NCBI GenBank assembly: GCA_947474415.1 | Contig: CANJKD010000023.1 | Span: forward strand, 1 to 11,243 | Reading direction: 5' to 3' | DNA length: 11,243 nt | From: Burkholderiales bacterium | GTDB lineage: Bacteria > Pseudomonadota > Gammaproteobacteria > Burkholderiales > Burkholderiaceae_C | Part shown: piece by piece, positions 1 to 7,656 of the stretch | How the letters are laid out: each line of letters starts with the position of its first letter | Position numbering within the stretch: the stretch's first letter is position 1 | Position numbers and translations under genes: made by a program | Notes under the pieces: generated by a model | Seen by the model: the letters and a program-made list of their open reading frames with translations, nothing else | Told to the model about the DNA's origin: nothing | Database searches by the model: none

Positions 1-1116
1 CATGCGAGGCGACAGCGACGCGAAAGGGTCTTGCAGCACGACTTGCATGCGTCGACGCATCGCTCGCAGCGCGCGGCGGTCGGCGTTGTCGATGCGCTCG
101 CCGCCCATCAGCACCTCGCCCGCCGAGACCGCCTGCAAGGCCAGCAGCGCCATGCCCAGCGTGGTCTTGCCCGAGCCCGATTCGCCGACGATGCCGAGCG
201 TCTCGCCGCGCTTGAGCTGCAGCGTGGCGTGGCGCACCGCCTCGAAGTGGCGCTTCGAGAACCAGCCTTGCGTGATCGTGAAGGTCACGCCCAGATCGCG
301 CGCTTCGACGAGCGTGGGCGCGTCGGCCGCGACGGCCTGCACCACACGCTGCGGCCGGCTCGCCATCAGCTTCTTCGTGTACGCGTGTTGCGGGTTGGCG
401 AACACCGCGGCGGTGTCGCCCATCTCGACCAGCTTGCCGCGCTCCATCACGCCGATGCGGTGCGTGAAGCGGCGCACCAGGTTCAGGTCATGCGTGATGA
501 ACAGCAGCGCCATGCCCATCTCGGCCTGCAGTTCGTCGAGCAGCGCCAGGATCTGGGCTTGTATGGTCACGTCGAGCGCGGTGGTCGGCTCGTCGCAGAT
601 CAGCAGCTTCGGGCGGCAGGCCAGCGCCATCGCGATCATCGCGCGCTGGCGCTGGCCGCCCGACAACTGGTGCGGGTAGGCGTCGATGCGGCGCTCGGGC
701 TCGGGGATGCCGGTGCGTGTCAGCAGCTCGATGGCGCGCGCCCGTGCCGCGTTCGGGCGCAGTGCCTCGTGCAGTTCGAGCACCTCGCCGATCTGGTTGC
801 CCACGGTGTACAGCGGGTTCAGCGCCGTCATCGGCTCCTGGAAGATCATCGCGATCTTGGCACCGCGAATGCCACGCATCTCGCGCTCCGACTTGCGCGT
901 CAAGTCGGCGCCGTTGAAGCGGATCGCACCGGTCGTGGTGGCCGAATCGACCAGCCGCAGCACCGACAACGCGCTGATCGATTTGCCAGAACCCGACTCG
1001 CCGACGAGCCCGAATTTCTCACCCGGGGCGATCGAGAACGACACGTCGTCGACGACCGTGCTCTGGCCGAAACGTACGGTCAGGTGCTCGACTTCGAGAA
1101 GGGGGGGGTTAGACAT
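1..1116 (-). CDS. yejF: YejF-type peptide ABC transporter ATP-binding protein, two fused ATPase domains (partial, 3' end outside window)
   Basis: This is the ATPase that powers the Yej peptide importer at the inner face of the cytoplasmic membrane. The visible 372 codons are open without interruption from ATG at 1116 to the window edge; E. coli YejF is about 530 residues, so roughly the last 150 are missing. The first nucleotide-binding domain shows Walker A GESGSGKS (residues 39-46), Q-loop Gln93, signature LSGGQ (151-155), Walker B LLICDEP (171-177) and switch His209. After a linker containing the [13 protein letters not shown] stretch (241-253) typical of oligopeptide ATPases, a second domain begins with Walker A GESGSGKT (311-318) and Q-loop Gln362. 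In E. coli yejF directly follows yejE; here a GxxExxY gene intervenes, ending 17 bp upstream. No strong Shine-Dalgarno sequence precedes the ATG, so translation may be coupled to the upstream gene. Codons 4-6 lie in a run of eight C. Function is confident by family and context; the start is likely but not certain. Confidence 0.95.
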
Positions 1117-1126
1117 GATGGATTTC

Positions 1127-1173
1127 AACTCACTCACCGCAGAGGCGCAGAAGGCGCAGAGGAACGCAGAGAA
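1127..1173 (+). repeat. Left arm of inverted repeat flanking the GxxExxY gene (CGCAGAGG-type micro-repeats)
   Basis: The arm starts AACTCACTCACCGCAGAGG and continues as imperfect 9-10 bp tandem units (CGCAGAGG, CGCAGAAGG, CGCAGAGGAA, CGCAGAGAA). It pairs in inverted orientation with 1528-1576. On the minus strand it encodes the last residues (SSAPSAPLR) and the stop codon of the GxxExxY protein, and it lies immediately upstream of the yejF start. Because the two arms are complementary in a single transcript, a long stem could form in the operon mRNA. Confidence 0.85.
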
Positions 1174-1598
1174 TTCACAACGCGTTTGATGCCAGATTTC
1201 AGCAGCGGCACGTTGAAGTTGATGAGCAGCCCGGCGGCCAGACCGGTCGCGCGAAGGTAGCTCAGCAACTGGGCGCGGTGCACTTCTTCGATGGCAGTCA
1301 GTGCCTTCACTTCGACGATCACGCGATGATCAACGATCAGATCGAGGCGCAGAGCGGTTTGAAGGGCGGTGCCTTTGTAGATGACCGGTATGGCAACTTG
1401 CGCCTTGAATGGCACGCCGCGCAGCGCCAGTTCTTGCCGCAGGGCGCCCTGGTAGATCGACTCCAGCATGCCTGGGCCAAGAACGGTATGCACCTCGATG
1501 GCAGCCGCGAGAATCACGTCTGTGAGTTCTCTCTGCGGGAACTCCGCGTCCTCTGCGCCTCTGCGGTGCGTGAGTTGTTCTTGTTCGGTGGCCATCAT
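1134..1598 (-). CDS. GxxExxY family protein (PD-(D/E)XK nuclease-like, PDDEXK_3)
   Basis: The 154-residue product belongs to the GxxExxY family, whose biochemical role is not established but whose fold is predicted to be PD-(D/E)XK nuclease-like. Visible hallmarks are GPGMLESIYQGAL (residues 41-53), giving Gly43-x-x-Glu46-x-x-Tyr49; RLDLIVDHRVIVEVKAL (84-100), giving a candidate Asp86/Glu96-x-Lys98 active site; and LLSYLRATG (111-119) followed by GLLINFNVPLLKSG (123-136). The start chosen is ATG 1598, overlapping the yejE stop as ATGA; ATG 1595 is the next codon and equally possible. Residues about 9-19 (LTHRRGAEDAE) and the C-terminal SSAPSAPLR come from the flanking inverted repeat, so the conserved core is about residues 20-145. 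No strong ribosome binding site is seen; translation is probably coupled to yejE. It has no known link to peptide transport and is best read as an insertion. Family assignment is firm; nuclease activity is inference. Confidence 0.9.
   Translation of the reverse strand: MMATEQEQLTHRRGAEDAEFPQRELTDVILAAAIEVHTVLGPGMLESIYQGALRQELALRGVPFKAQVAIPVIYKGTALQTALRLDLIVDHRVIVEVKALTAIEEVHRAQLLSYLRATGLAAGLLINFNVPLLKSGIKRVVNSLRSSAPSAPLR
1528..1576 (-). repeat. Right arm of inverted repeat flanking the GxxExxY gene
   Basis: Read on the minus strand, the arm begins AACTCACGCACCGCAGAGG, matching the left arm at 24 of the first 25 bases. It then diverges but keeps CGCAGAG-like units (CGCAGAGGA, CGCGGAGTTC, CGCAGAGAG). 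It encodes the LTHRRGAEDAEF stretch near the N-terminus of the GxxExxY protein, starting about 20 bp downstream of the yejE stop codon. Confidence 0.85.
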
Positions 1599-2719
1599 GA
1601 CTTGCGCGTATCGAAAGCGTCGCGCAACGCGTCGCCGATGAAGGTCAGCAGCAGCAGCGTCATCACCAGCACCGCGAATGTCGGGAAGATGATCCACCAC
1701 GAGTCGAGATTCGCCTTGCCCTGCTTGACCAGGTCACCGAGCGACGGCACCGAAGGCGGCACGCCCAGGCCGAGGAAGTCGAGCGCCACCAGCGACAGGA
1801 TGGCGCCGCTCATGCGGAACGGCAGGAAGGTGATCACTGGCGTCATCGAGTTCGGCAGCACATGGCGCCACATGATTTGCCGGCTGGAGAGGCCGAGTGC
1901 ACGTGCCGCCTTCACGAACTCGAGGCCTCGGTTGCGCAGGAACTCGGCCCGCACATAGTCCGACAGGCCGATCCAGCCGAACATCGACAGCAGCACCAGC
2001 AGCAGCAGCAGCGAGGGCTCGAAGATCGACGCGAAGATGATCAGCAGGTAGAGCTCGGGGATCGAGCCCCAGATCTCGATCAGGCGCTGCAGTGTCAGGT
2101 CGACGCGGCCGCCGAAGTAGCCCTGCACCGCGCCGGCCGTCACCGCGATCACGGTGCCCACCGCCGTCAGCGCCAGGCCGAACAGGATGCTGACCCGAAA
2201 GCCGTAGAGCAGCCGCGCCACCATGTCCTGGCCCACGCTGTCGGTGCCCAGCCAGTTCTTTGCGCTCGGTGCGGCCGGGTTCGGTGCCTTCTGGAAGTAG
2301 TCGGTCGAGGTGGCCGAGTGCGGGTTCAGCGTGCGCAGCATCCAGTTGTCGGGTTGGTCGAACTGCTGGGTGATGAACGGATCTTTCCAGTCGGTGGGCG
2401 TCGCGAAGTCCCCGCCGTAGGTGGTCTCGGGGGGGTTGCTGAAGATCGGGAATGTCCAGTGCCCGTCGTAGCGCGCCACCAGCGGTCGGTCGTTGCTGAT
2501 GAGTTCTGCGAAAGCACTCAGCACCAGCAGCGCCACCATGATCCACAGCGAGCCGAAGCCGATCCGATTGCGCTTGAAGCGCGCCCACGCCCTTTGATTC
2601 GGTGAGAGTGGCGCCCCTCGCCCGACGAGTACATCGGTCGATCCCCCGAGGGGATGCGGGTCCGCTTGGGAGCGGCCCGGCGCTGGACCCGCTGCCGCTT
2701 CGGCCAGAAGTTCAGTCAT
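1595..2719 (-). CDS. yejE: YejE-type peptide ABC transporter permease, with N-terminal extension
   Basis: Second inner-membrane permease of the Yej peptide importer (374 residues; E. coli YejE is about 341). After the first membrane segment (FGSLWIMVALLVLSAFAELI, about 55-74) comes a long periplasmic stretch with YDGHWTFPIF and the NWLGTDSVGQDMVARLLYG motif that marks OppC/DppC/YejE permeases, then several membrane helices and the ATPase-coupling EAA loop (EFVKAARALGLSSRQIMWRH, followed by a conserved proline/asparagine turn). The C-terminus FIGDALRDAFDTRKS matches the YejE ending. The ATG at 2719 overlaps the yejB stop as ATGA and has GGGAG at 2729-2733, nine bases upstream, so the start is well supported. 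Residues about 1-36 have no counterpart in E. coli YejE, where homology begins at LSPxNQxxWARF; part of this extension is encoded by a hairpin-forming sequence (2641-2655). The stop overlaps the start of the GxxExxY gene. Confidence 0.95.
   Translation of the reverse strand: MTELLAEAAAGPAPGRSQADPHPLGGSTDVLVGRGAPLSPNQRAWARFKRNRIGFGSLWIMVALLVLSAFAELISNDRPLVARYDGHWTFPIFSNPPETTYGGDFATPTDWKDPFITQQFDQPDNWMLRTLNPHSATSTDYFQKAPNPAAPSAKNWLGTDSVGQDMVARLLYGFRVSILFGLALTAVGTVIAVTAGAVQGYFGGRVDLTLQRLIEIWGSIPELYLLIIFASIFEPSLLLLLVLLSMFGWIGLSDYVRAEFLRNRGLEFVKAARALGLSSRQIMWRHVLPNSMTPVITFLPFRMSGAILSLVALDFLGLGVPPSVPSLGDLVKQGKANLDSWWIIFPTFAVLVMTLLLLTFIGDALRDAFDTRKS
2641..2655. repeat. Small perfect palindrome within the yejE N-terminal extension
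   Basis: ATCCCC (2641-2646) and GGGGAT (2650-2655) form a 6-bp stem around a 3-base loop. It lies within the roughly 36-codon 5' extension of yejE that E. coli YejE lacks. A short palindrome inside a non-conserved, in-frame extension could be the core of a dispersed repeat that landed in the gene; this cannot be decided from one window. Confidence 0.45.
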
Positions 2720-3770: not shown

Positions 3771-5720
3771 TCAGCGCTTGTCCAGGGCCTTGATCCACCA
3801 GGTCGAGATGGGCCAGGGAATCTGCTCGTCGACCTCTGGGGGCAAGTCGGCCTGAAAGAACTTCGGTCGCTCGGCGGGTATGCCGAAAATATTCCAGTAC
3901 GACATCGGCTCGTAGTCGGCGTACAGCTCCGGCACCTGCCAGTGGTTCCACATCACGACCCGGTCCAGCGCGCGGGTGGCGTCGGTGAATTCCCGCGGCG
4001 TGGTGGCGCGGTTCATGGCCGCGAGGATGTGATCGACCGCAGCGCTCTTCACGCCGCGGAAATTGTTGCCGCCCTTTTCGTCGGCAGCCTTGCTGCCCAG
4101 GAAGGCTGCGGTATCCGCGGCCGAAGGCAGACCAAACGTGCCGCCGGCGAGTGTGACGACGTCGAAGTCGTACTCTTCCAGGCGGCGGCTGTAGAGCGCG
4201 AAGTCGACGTTGCGCACCTTGAAGCTGATGCCCAGCTTGCCGAGGTTGCGCGCCCAGGCGTTCAGGCGGGCGTTGTTGAAACTGTCGCCGGGCGCGAGGT
4301 ACTCGAATTCGAACGGTTCGCCGCGCGCGTTGCGCAGCTTGCCATCGGGTGCGAGCTTCCAGCCGGCGGCCTCCAGCAGGTCGCGCGCCTTCAGCAGGTT
4401 GCGCCGCAGCGCGTTCACGTCGCTGTCGGTGCGCGGCGCAACATACGGTGGGCCGAACACTTCCGCAGGCAGCGCGTCGCGGAACGGTTCCAGCAGCTTC
4501 AGTTCGCCCGCCGCTGGCAGCCCCTGGGCCGCGTAGTCGGAGTTGTTGAACAAGCTGTTGGCGCGCTTGAACAGCCGGTAGCGGTTGTTCGTCTCGAAGT
4601 CGTAGGTCAGCCCCAGTGCCTCGCGCACGCGGATGTCCTGGAGCAGCGGCCGGCGCATGTTCAGCGTGTACGACTGAAGACCCTGACCGGTGCCGACCGG
4701 GAACGATTTCTTGACGATACGCCCGTCGTCCCACTTCGGCCCCTTGTGCTTGCGCACCCAGATGGCGGCGCCGTAGACGCGCACGAGGTCGAACTCGCCA
4801 GCCTTGAACGCCTCCAGCGCCACGTCCTCGTCCTGGTAGTAGCGGTACACGATGCGATCGAAGTTGAAGAAGCCGCGCCGCGCCGGCAGGTTGCGCGCCC
4901 AGTAGTCGGGGTTGCGCTTGAGCTCCAGGCGCCGCCCGGAGTCGGCCACAGCTATCGTATAGGCGCCACTCGTGACGGGAAACTCGCTGACGATCTCGTC
5001 GAAGCGGGTGTGCGTGCCGTCGGGTTTGAGCCCCCACTTGTGCGAGAACACGGGCAGCGCGCCGACCTTGAACAGCGTGTCGCCGGTCCGCTCCGACAGG
5101 TCGAAGCGGATCGTTCGCGCATCGATCACCGTCGCCTTGCTCACGCCCACTAGCACCGAGCTGTAGGTCGGAGACGCGTACTTGCCGGACAGCGACTCGA
5201 AGCTGTACTTCACATCCGCCGCGGTCACCGGGTCGCCATTGCTGAAGCGCGCCAGCGGGTGCAGGCGGAACGTGATCGCGCTCAGGTCGGGTTCGATGCG
5301 CATCTCTTGCGCGAGCAGGCCATACATGGTGCGCGGCTCGTCGCCGCCGAGCACGGTGAGCGTCTCCAGCATGAAGATGCCCATTCCCGCGGGCGCGTTG
5401 CCGCGGATGGTGAAGTAGTTGAACTTGTCGAAGCTGGTGCGCCGGTCAGGGTTGGCCAAGTGCAGCACGCCGCCCTTCGGCGCGCCCGGGTCGGCATAGT
5501 TGAAGTGCGTGAAGTCCCTGCCGTGTTTCGGCTCACCGTAAGCTGCGTAGGCATGAAGCCATGGGGCGGTGGCCGTCACGGGCGCCGATGCCGGTGGTGT
5601 CGGCAGGGACTGCGCCTGCACCGGCCCCGCCACTGCGGTGGCGCACAGCAGCAGCACGCCCAGCCAGCGCGCCGGGGCCGCGCCACGGGTGCGGTAAGCG
5701 TCAGCGCCTGGCCGGGTCAC
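3771..5720 (-). CDS. yejA: YejA-type extracellular peptide-binding protein, copy 1 (SBP_bac_5 family)
   Basis: Periplasmic solute-binding protein that delivers peptides to the YejBE permease. The reading frame is also open from an ATG at 5759, but GTG at 5720 is preferred: it gives 649 residues, close to the 651 of the neighbouring paralogue, places the signal sequence correctly, and reduces overlap with the upstream gene to 20 bp (5701-5720). The N-terminus has a signal peptide (hydrophobic LGVLLLCATAVA, probable cleavage after PVQA). Family features are WLHAYAAYGEPK, NPDRRTSFDKFN, FMLETLTVLGGDEP, the SBP_bac_5 hallmark FSNGDPVTAADVKYSFE, and the YejA-specific ending VVMWNHWQVPELY ... ISTWWIKALDKR. 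It is closely similar along its whole length to the upstream copy, indicating tandem duplication, but sequence differences are spread throughout, so the duplication is not recent. Function is firm at family level; its ligand is unknown. A GGTGGA at 5724-5729 is the only, weak, ribosome site candidate. Confidence 0.93.
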   Translation of the reverse strand: MTRPGADAYRTRGAAPARWLGVLLLCATAVAGPVQAQSLPTPPASAPVTATAPWLHAYAAYGEPKHGRDFTHFNYADPGAPKGGVLHLANPDRRTSFDKFNYFTIRGNAPAGMGIFMLETLTVLGGDEPRTMYGLLAQEMRIEPDLSAITFRLHPLARFSNGDPVTAADVKYSFESLSGKYASPTYSSVLVGVSKATVIDARTIRFDLSERTGDTLFKVGALPVFSHKWGLKPDGTHTRFDEIVSEFPVTSGAYTIAVADSGRRLELKRNPDYWARNLPARRGFFNFDRIVYRYYQDEDVALEAFKAGEFDLVRVYGAAIWVRKHKGPKWDDGRIVKKSFPVGTGQGLQSYTLNMRRPLLQDIRVREALGLTYDFETNNRYRLFKRANSLFNNSDYAAQGLPAAGELKLLEPFRDALPAEVFGPPYVAPRTDSDVNALRRNLLKARDLLEAAGWKLAPDGKLRNARGEPFEFEYLAPGDSFNNARLNAWARNLGKLGISFKVRNVDFALYSRRLEEYDFDVVTLAGGTFGLPSAADTAAFLGSKAADEKGGNNFRGVKSAAVDHILAAMNRATTPREFTDATRALDRVVMWNHWQVPELYADYEPMSYWNIFGIPAERPKFFQADLPPEVDEQIPWPISTWWIKALDKR

Positions 5721-7656
5721 GGATCCACCAGGTGACGAGGGGCCAGGCCGGCTGCGCATCGCTCGGGCTGTCGATCGAGTAGTAGGTCGGGCGCACCGCC
5801 GGCATGCCGAACTTGTTCCAGTAGCTCGTGGGCAGCTGAGAGAAATACAGGTCGGGCACCTGCCAGTGGTTCCACATCACGACGCGGTCGAGCGCGCGCG
5901 CGGCGGTGCGCAGTGCGTCGAGCGTCTGGGCCGCGTTCATCGCCTCGACGACGTGGTCGACCGCCGCGCTCTTCACGCCGCGGTAGTTGCTGTTGCCCTT
6001 TTCGTCTGCGGACTTGCTGCCATACAGCTGCTCGTAATCCTTCGGGCTGGGCAGCGTGAACCGGCCTTCGACGATCGCCACCATGTCGAAGTCGTAGTTC
6101 TCCAGGCGCCGCCGATAGAGCGCGAAGTCGACGTTGCGCACCTTCATCTTGATGCCGAGTTTTTCGAGGTTGCGCTGCCAGTCCTCCACGCCCGAGCGCT
6201 CGGACGGCGTCATGTACTCGAACTCGAAGGGCTCGCCCTTGGCATTGCGCAGCACGCCGTCGGCGCCCAGCTTCCAGCCCGCAGCCTCCAGGAGCGACCG
6301 CGCCTTGAGCAGGTTGGCGCGCAGTCGCAAGGCATCGCCGCCGGTATCGGGGGCCACGAACGCCGGGCCGAACACTTCGGCGGGCAGCGCCTGGCGAAAG
6401 GGCTCGAGCAGCTTCAGTTCGGCGGCGGACGGCAGGCCTTCGGCGGCGAAGTCCGAGTTGTTGAACATGCTGCTCGCGCGCCGGAACATCTTGAACCGGT
6501 TGTTCGCGGTATCAAAGTCGTAGGTCAGCCCGATCGCGCTGCGCACGCGCAGGTCCTGGAAGATCGGCCGGCGCAGGTTCAGGTCATAGGCCTGCAGGCC
6601 CTGGCCGAAGCCGGTCTGGAACAGCTCCTTGACGATGCGTCCGTCGTCCCACTTCGGGCCTTTGATCTGGCGGTTCCAGGTGCGCGCGCCGTAGATGCGA
6701 ACGATGTCGAACTCGCCGGCCTTGAAGGCTTCGGTGGCGACCACGTCGTCCTTGTAGTAGCGGTACACGACGCGGTCGAAGTTGAAGAAGCCACGCCGCA
6801 CCGGGAGATCGCGGGCCCAGTAGTCGGGGTTGCGCTTGAACTCGATGCGCCGCCCCGAGTCGACCAGGCCGATCATGTACGGCCCGCTGGTCACCGGGTA
6901 CTCGGTGACGACCTCGTCGAACCGGCGCGGCTTGCCGTCGGGGCCGGTCGTCCACCGGGGTGAAAACACCGGCAACGCACCGAGCGAGAACAGGGTGTCG
7001 GCGCTCTTGTCTTGCAACTCGAAGCGGATGGTGCGTGTGTCGACCACGACCGCGCTCGACACGCCGGCGTACTGGGTCTGGTACGCCGGTGCCACGTACT
7101 TGCTGCGCAGCGTCTCGAAGCTGAACTTCACATCCGCCGCCGTGACCGGGTCGCCGTTGTAAAAGCGCGCCTTCGGGTTCAGGCGAAAGGTGATGGCCGA
7201 CTTGTCGGGTGCCACCAGCATCGCTTCGGCGAGCAGCCCGTACATGGTCTGCGGCTCATCGCCGCTGAGGAGGGTCAGCGATTCCAGCATGAAGATCGCC
7301 AGACCACCCGGCGAACTGCCCTTCACCGTGAAGGGGTTGAACTTGTCGAAGCTGGTACGCCGGTCGGGGTTCTTCAGGTACAGCGTGCCACCCTTCGGTG
7401 CCGTCGGGTCGGCGTACTCGAAGTGAGTGAAACCGGGCCCGTACTTGGGTTCGCCGAAGGCGGCATAGGCATGCACCCAGCCGGCACCCGCAGCGGCAGA
7501 CGCCGCAGGCGCAGCGGGCTGAAGCGCTGCGATGGCAGGGGTGCTGGCGATGAGGTTTGCCGCCGACGCGGCGAGTGCCAGGGCGGCGGGTAGCAGCCAG
7601 GCGAATCGGCGGGTCAGGCTGCGAAGTGTCAAATTGCGAACGGCGGGTTTTCGCAT
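5701..7656 (-). CDS. yejA: YejA-type extracellular peptide-binding protein, copy 2 (SBP_bac_5 family)
   Basis: Periplasmic solute-binding protein of the Yej peptide importer, 651 residues, first gene of the yej cluster in the direction of transcription. It has an Arg-rich start followed by a hydrophobic segment (FAWLLPAALALAASAANLIA) and a probable signal peptidase site after TPAIA near residue 43. Family features include WVHAYAAFGEPKYG, NPDRRTSFDKFN, the SBP_bac_5 block FYNGDPVTAADVKFSFE, the repeated YPVTSGPYMIGLVDSGRR region, and the C-terminal VVMWNHWQVPDLY and LVTWWIRDPARR. The copy just downstream has the same blocks in the same order. The ATG at 7656 is the only reasonable start, but no clear Shine-Dalgarno sequence precedes it. 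Only 45 bp separate it from the thioredoxin-like gene, so both may lie on one transcript. Whether the two YejA copies differ in ligand cannot be read from sequence. Confidence 0.95.
   Translation of the reverse strand: MRKPAVRNLTLRSLTRRFAWLLPAALALAASAANLIASTPAIAALQPAAPAASAAAGAGWVHAYAAFGEPKYGPGFTHFEYADPTAPKGGTLYLKNPDRRTSFDKFNPFTVKGSSPGGLAIFMLESLTLLSGDEPQTMYGLLAEAMLVAPDKSAITFRLNPKARFYNGDPVTAADVKFSFETLRSKYVAPAYQTQYAGVSSAVVVDTRTIRFELQDKSADTLFSLGALPVFSPRWTTGPDGKPRRFDEVVTEYPVTSGPYMIGLVDSGRRIEFKRNPDYWARDLPVRRGFFNFDRVVYRYYKDDVVATEAFKAGEFDIVRIYGARTWNRQIKGPKWDDGRIVKELFQTGFGQGLQAYDLNLRRPIFQDLRVRSAIGLTYDFDTANNRFKMFRRASSMFNNSDFAAEGLPSAAELKLLEPFRQALPAEVFGPAFVAPDTGGDALRLRANLLKARSLLEAAGWKLGADGVLRNAKGEPFEFEYMTPSERSGVEDWQRNLEKLGIKMKVRNVDFALYRRRLENYDFDMVAIVEGRFTLPSPKDYEQLYGSKSADEKGNSNYRGVKSAAVDHVVEAMNAAQTLDALRTAARALDRVVMWNHWQVPDLYFSQLPTSYWNKFGMPAVRPTYYSIDSPSDAQPAWPLVTWWIRDPARR

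Follow-up and report, generated by a model that had tools for sequence, protein, structure and literature searches.

In the miniature inverted-repeat transposable elements (MITEs) of insertion sequences, gene-bearing and gene-less copies have their terminal inverted repeats in common. The intervening sequences (IVSs) of ribosomal RNA (rRNA) that carry S23 are called selfish, stem-forming inserts in the excerpted text of PMC4990558; that of the Coxiella burnetii 23S rRNA measures 428–444 nt, has complementary ends and is excised from the RNA by RNase III (PMC4990558). Repetitive extragenic palindromic (REP) sequences of 20–40 bp, tagged by GTAG or CGTC, are described in the excerpted text of PMC3733652. 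The locus analysed here lies in a stretch of 11,243 nt (the window; contig CANJKD010000023.1 of the Burkholderiales bacterium assembly GCA_947474415.1) in which a gene of the GxxExxY family (PF13366, PDDEXK_3), framed by two inverted repeats (the arms), sits at the junction between two ABC transporter genes of a peptide-transport operon. Following the initial annotation, we take these transporter genes to be yejE and yejF. There is good support for gene and arms being a single mobile unit. The explanation that best fits the data, which we consider probable though far from certain, is that they constitute a minimal mobile element whose nuclease reads the arms and which has gene-less, MITE-like derivatives.

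The element resembles a 23S IVS in having one small open reading frame (ORF) in ~430 nt, stem-forming inverted repeats, tolerance within an essential transcription unit and a suspected selfish or mobile nature, as far as the excerpt of PMC4990558 describes these inserts. However, the S23 ORF lies inside the 23S gene, whereas the window element is a PF13366 gene at an operon junction, with iterated CRCNNAG arms and gene-less copies genome-wide. The systems of REP doublets forming hairpins (REPINs) and REP-associated tyrosine transposases (RAYTs) likewise combine many short gene-less palindromes with one or a few copies of an apparently required gene. They differ in that GxxExxY is a predicted PD-(D/E)XK nuclease and not a Y1 tyrosine transposase, that its gene sits between the arms, and that the host's copies are 85–103 bp long and made of iterated CRCNNAG heptamers. 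As in MITEs, 14 paired gene-less copies in the host have the terminal repeats of the gene-bearing copy; unlike in MITEs, the gene-bearing copy has no recognised transposase, no target-site duplication is visible, and the arms are iterated instead of being one fixed repeat. A possible selfish nuclease gene also recalls free-standing homing endonucleases and other PD-(D/E)XK enzymes, but the word read by the GxxExxY protein would, going by covariation, be in the element's own arms. The open-licence full text, which was the literature searched, yielded neither a role for GxxExxY proteins nor a description of their elements, the name appearing as a gene label in the partial texts seen; it likewise contained no relevant description of the unit words of the arms and no usable account of bacterial MITEs of this kind.

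Insertion of the element between yejE and yejF

The yejE ends of 30 genomes were compared, and the junction was found to be filled in two: that of the window (G000, a 2.9-Mb draft, 68% complete, with the window on its contig C23) and its sister G004. The insertion is present in record JANXZA010000060.1, a Rhizobacter sp. metagenome-assembled genome. The initial annotation had envisaged an empty site in close relatives, and five congeners provide it: in G001, G003, G006, G008 and G009 the yejE and yejF genes overlap or almost abut, while in the window the gap between the end of yejE (1595) and the start of yejF (1116) is 478 bp. Since these same-genus junctions are empty, the gene with its arms is an insertion; an ancestral position at this junction is ruled out by them, and vertical descent of the gene at the junction in all relatives was looked for and not found. 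Chains of three arm units (defined below) within 500 bases were present in 0 of the 28 unfilled yejE ends. Two-unit chains occurred within that distance in 25 of these 28, mostly on the opposite strand, and are taken for presumed chance occurrences in coding sequence.

The inserted gene (1134..1598, minus strand) encodes 154 aa and stands in the minus-strand order yejE, GxxExxY gene, yejF. Its identity, proposed earlier, was confirmed by matches to PF13366 (137.7 bits against a cut-off of 22, E = 2.9 × 10−40; its sole Pfam match) and TIGR04256 (140 bits against a curated cut-off of 35, E = 4.1 × 10−41). The signature residues are G43-xx-E46-xx-Y49 and those of the active site D86, E96 and K98. 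The catalytic D, E and K are invariant in 107 of 107 GxxExxY proteins (residue numbers in that conservation alignment run 8 lower than those just given), and with its PD-(D/E)XK residues intact the protein is a predicted nuclease. A fold search, for which the structure alignment contained 75 sequences, points tentatively to RecB/Cas4-like, Hjc-like and restriction-like nucleases; a close solved relative was sought by sequence and the only match (E = 0.99) was an unrelated enzyme. No transposase was recognised between the arms, where the framed gene matched GxxExxY alone in Pfam and NCBIfam, overlapping frames not having been profiled; this agrees with the earlier view of a unit without a transposase of its own. 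Comparison of the window and G004 copies of the gene shows 62 differences over 441 positions, 38 of which fall on third positions, a nonsynonymous rate (dN) of ~0.07 and a synonymous rate (dS) of ~0.45 (dN/dS ~0.15). The protein of the yejE–yejF copy has therefore been under purifying selection since the G000/G004 split, which is compatible with a selfish as well as with a useful gene. GxxExxY genes are frequent: 44 of the 300 genomes from the window's order have one, as do 61 of 319 from its phylum.

The upstream arm (1529..1577, minus strand) consists of CAACTCACG followed by CGCAGAG, CGCAGAG, CGCGGAG and CGCAGAG, and the downstream arm, an inverted copy (1126..1176, plus strand), of CAACTCACT followed by CGCAGAG, CGCAGAA, CGCAGAG and CGCAGAG. 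Between 1126–1161 and 1542–1577 the two are complementary over 36 nt at 89% (32 of 36 bases), and a recount of the outer 25 bases returned the same 24 matches as first reported. The best minus-strand self-match of 1000–1700 scored 24, whereas none of 200 dinucleotide shuffles scored above 12; a chance repeat is ruled out by these shuffles and by the control windows described below. The repeats had been said to enclose the gene. They do frame it, with the refinement that both lie inside its open frame: with the possible start ATG at 1598, which overlaps the yejE stop (ATGA), the upstream arm encodes the N-terminal LTHRRGAEDAE, and the complement of the downstream arm encodes the C-terminal SLRSSAPSAPLR.

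Iterated arms and their covariation with the protein

When genome contigs were scanned with the window protein, 312 loci were obtained and the best 80 kept; by their record titles, these best 80 of 312 are spread over many phyla. Together with 29 loci of the window's order and the window itself they form a set of 110 loci. Inverted flanks were present at 71 of the best 80 of 312 loci and at 28 of the 29 further ones, giving 99 of 109 GxxExxY loci in total versus 2 of 138 control windows. About three iterated units of the heptamer CRCNNA(G/T) make up an arm, with variants that include CGCAGAG, CACAGAG, CACGGAG, CGCAAAG, CACGAAG and CGCCAAG; in arms of at least three units the spacing was 8 or 9 bp in 286 of 336 steps. 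The initial annotation had placed similar CGCAGAG-type repeats near GxxExxY genes in various bacteria. Chains of at least two units flank the gene on both sides at 90 of the 110 loci (0 of 139 control windows); chains of at least three units on at least one side occur at 92 of 110 (2 of 139 control windows). Units of one arm agree pairwise at base 2 in 91%, at base 5 in 92% and at base 4 in 73% of cases, as against 50%, 52% and 44%, respectively, between loci. Carriage as phage cargo was rejected, with zero matches in 50,697 phage records, as was plasmid cargo, with matches in 8 of 72,556 plasmid records, each below 60% identity. The finding is real and larger than first stated.

Covariation between protein and arms was sought in 107 proteins, those shorter than 100 aa (L139, L184 and L194) being left out of the 110. 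Unit labels, taken from at least four units, were available at 90 of the 110 loci, which gave a clear base 5 for 84 proteins and a clear base 2 for 86. Among the 84, threonine at residue 26 (T26) was found at 41 of 57 loci where unit base 5 is G (G5 loci), one of these 57 rows (L073) being a fragment with a gap at that residue, versus 0 of 27 loci where it is A (A5 loci). At residue 27, most G5 loci had E, G, Q or D, and most A5 loci had K, N, R or Q. In the window this pair is T26 and D27, encoded by ACA GAC (1518..1523, minus strand); the codons for residues 26–27 are ordinary ones outside the arm units. The association was assessed by simulating the trait 400 times on a tree built without the tested columns, with the maximum taken over 114 columns; the familywise result was 0 of 400 simulations for residue 26 and P = 0.01 for residue 27, and base 5 underwent no fewer than 14 changes along the tree. 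Residue 12, which ranked first for base 2, and residue 13, in the case of base 5, were artefacts of the arms lying inside the frame, and were excluded from the simulation test. At loci outside the scan, T26 or an E, D or G at residue 27 was found at 11 of 18 G5 loci versus 0 of 22 A5 loci, a difference whose P value of 1 × 10−5 overstates independence because many of the loci are interrelated. These loci came from a set of 33, minus three without units, and a set of 15 reduced to 10 by omitting L345, L350, L353 and L359 (unmatched by the search pattern) and L358 (no unit chain). Doubtful labels were those of L310 (a tie, taken as G) and of L354 and L355 (taken as A after the upstream arm, the downstream one being mixed). 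Because unit base 5 covaries with residues 26–27, the GxxExxY protein probably reads its own arms.

Gene-less copies in the host, the genus and the order

The pattern CACCGCAGAGGCGCAGAG, allowing at most three mismatches, gave 47 matches in the host genome versus one for the reversed pattern, so that the repeat, whose confinement to this locus would have spoken against mobility, is present in dozens of copies. Fourteen pairs of matches form palindromes of 85–103 bp that contain no gene and have the same arms as the GxxExxY copy. RNA folding of two of them yielded energies of −87.4 and −80.7 kcal/mol, with z-scores of −13.8 and −11.4; in three loci with gene-less copies no known RNA family matched at the gathering threshold. 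At L006, L012 and L003 some of the gene-less copies end on one side in AATGCTTACCGCAG and not in CAACTCACGCACCGCAG, which suggests that the outer end comes in two types.

Among the 10 genomes of the genus, array matches numbered 203 in G004 and 25 in G000, and 0–2, the level of the reversed control, in the other eight; within the genus, then, many arrays are found only in the two genomes with a CGCAGAG-type gene. Genome G003 has two GxxExxY genes and zero array matches, but its arms carry the CGCCAAG variant; because the array pattern ACCRCRRAGNCRCRRAG is blind to variants such as this one, arrays in G003 could have been missed. Eight joined gene-less sites were searched for in the congeners and five were aligned, each of which was empty in at least one congener; the C101b site was filled in G004. 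At the C9 site in G004 (L265, G004:C83) the element is absent while GGCGTGAGTTG is retained. This remnant rules out precise excision, and fits an older insertion that was later lost imprecisely, through what looks like a deletion between short repeats. Gene-less palindromes with unlike arms were noticed at L324 (G138; CGCAGAG versus CGCAAAG) and L332 (G306; CACAGAG versus CGCAAAG), as if arms had been exchanged. Other GxxExxY copies at an operon junction, with A5-type arms, were seen at L261 and L262 (G003) and L263 (G004), between genes which, from their encoded ends, we presume to be ureB-like and ureC-like; the arms of these three differ from copy to copy yet remain mirrored, and one of the copies, that of G004, contains an in-frame TAG.

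Of 300 genomes from the window's order, 31 were array-rich (at least four array matches); these tables, like that of the loci outside the covariation scan, were counted by hand. PF13366 was present in 20 of these 31 versus 24 of the 269 others (odds ratio 18.6) and, counted by genus, in 13 of 20 versus 11 of 115 (P = 2 × 10−7). For the Y1/RAYT transposases (PF01797) the figures were 24 of 31 versus 157 of 269 (odds ratio 2.4, P = 0.05; by genus, P = 0.12). Among these two families and a third, S23 (PF05635), it is the GxxExxY gene that predicts arrays best. In 11 genomes, unit base 5 was compared between gene-less copies and the genes fetched from the same genome, using two matches per genome (in some genomes both ends of one element); it agreed in G320, G138, G240, G099 and G177, and was uninformative in G331 and G185.

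How the element may spread

As reconstructed here, the element would comprise the gene and its arms, about 450–480 bp. The CRCNNAG units iterated in the arms would be recognised by the GxxExxY protein of the same element, base 5 of the unit being read by residues 26–27, near the start of a helix that precedes the catalytic core. The protein probably cuts or nicks the arms or an arm hairpin, and host repair or replication would then copy the element to new sites. Gene-less arm pairs (85–103 bp in the host) would be MITE-like derivatives whose spread is helped by the resident protein, and the yejE–yejF copy would have arrived before the G000/G004 split, leaving both neighbours readable. Binding, cutting at the arms and cutting as the cause of spread are steps that we infer, and that nuclease activity powers the spread is offered as a hypothesis. 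That gene and repeats make up a minimal mobile unit, as originally suggested, is supported by the empty junctions, by recurrence in many phyla and by the protein–arm covariation. A wider and more tentative proposal, which may well prove wrong, is that GxxExxY elements form a class of mobile DNA of their own, pan-bacterial and transposase-free, in which a PD-(D/E)XK nuclease reads the heptamers of its arms by a small residue-to-base code and powers its own spread and that of gene-less copies, and which would stand, with S23 and its 7-bp units, for a general, undescribed way to build minimal selfish elements.

Several results weigh against an element driven by its own arm-reading nuclease. No target-site duplication, a feature that the initial annotation had thought worth looking for, was visible at yejE–yejF or at five gene-less sites compared with empty congeners, the flanks having diverged. 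Unit base 2 was without a covarying residue in the same scan. In a pair test on supported branches, residue 27 changed in the expected way in 2.8 of 3 pairs on average and residue 26 in 0.7 of 3, none in the opposite way; with only three pairs significance is unreachable, and the tree is mostly weakly supported. At the G5 loci outside the scan, 7 of 18 had neither T26 nor E, D or G at residue 27, four of them having S-Q. Base 5 of gene-less units disagreed with that of the fetched genes in G343 and G276, and was mixed in G216 and G306. Eleven of the 31 array-rich genomes had no PF13366 match, while 24 of the 269 array-poor ones had one; the former could have lost the gene or be incomplete drafts. 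Lastly, S23 was itself associated with arrays (17 of 31 versus 52 of 269, odds ratio 5.1, P = 5 × 10−5), so the PF13366 association may in part reflect a general abundance of such elements in these genomes, and S23, which is no nuclease, shares a like architecture, so nuclease chemistry may not be the engine.

Alternatively, a transposase of host or foreign origin, such as a RAYT-type Y1 enzyme, might move the arms, with GxxExxY as an arm-binding passenger or regulator. We regard this as unlikely. Palindromic repeats with a low-copy gene do resemble REPIN/RAYT systems, the window genome has one PF01797 match, and so do 24 of the 31 array-rich genomes; the other seven have none, however, and the link between PF01797 (the only transposase family compared) and arrays is weak, with an odds ratio of 2.4 beside the 18.6 of PF13366. 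Moreover, the arms frame GxxExxY genes in many phyla.

It is quite improbable, in our estimate, that a host process acting on palindromes or transcripts (template switching, RNase III or reverse transcription) copies the element, with the protein protecting or regulating it and its catalysis being secondary, although this may be how 23S rRNA IVSs are copied. The comparison with S23 speaks for it. In a contrast set of 30 S23 loci (L201–L230), inverted flanks were found at 23, and CRCNNAG arms at 0 of 30; the flanking arms consist of repeated units such as GTGAGGA, AGGGGCT and AGGATTG, for which 7 is the best period in 20 of 23. By eye, S23 units are alike inside one locus and unlike across loci, and their words are other than those of GxxExxY. 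S23 is a helical bundle. Two unrelated small genes, GxxExxY and S23, share one architecture, which may represent a general element class or else be a sign that the nuclease activity of GxxExxY does not move DNA; both readings are kept. The strong folds of the two gene-less palindromes (−80.7 and −87.4 kcal/mol) would also suit a host process, as would the Coxiella 23S IVS, bordered by complementary ends and cut from RNA by RNase III in the excerpt of PMC4990558. Against it, the D, E and K kept in all 107 proteins imply that catalysis matters for something, and the protein–arm covariation is left unexplained by a host process alone. Domestication as a regulator or repair nuclease, with arms that are operators or targets spread by drift and recombination and with incidental mobility, is very improbable: purifying selection, in-frame coupling to yejE and the presence of copies between the ureB- and ureC-like genes of G003 as well as G004 favour it, but many gene-less copies occur in only 2 of the 10 genus genomes, five further sites are empty in congeners, and the family is present in many phyla.

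If a minimal element with an arm-reading nuclease is the right description, an entire family of uncharacterised proteins would turn out to be mobile-element enzymes, and a set of genomic palindromes that had lacked an explanation would acquire a parent. The link between unit base 5 and residues 26–27 makes the proposed reading of the arms directly testable in vitro, and the S23 parallel would also be relevant to the long-standing puzzle posed by the nature of rRNA intervening sequences.

The neighbours of the element are both on the minus strand. Upstream lies the yejE-like permease gene (1595..2719), delimited by the ORF list, the junction comparison and codons, with the ATG at 2719 chosen as its start; downstream, the yejF-like ATPase gene (1..1116) extends beyond the window edge. 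Farther along the same strand, two neighbouring long ORFs, 3771–5759 and 5701–7656 (662 and 651 aa), which we presume to be yejA-like binding-protein genes, look similar by eye and appear to be a tandem duplication.

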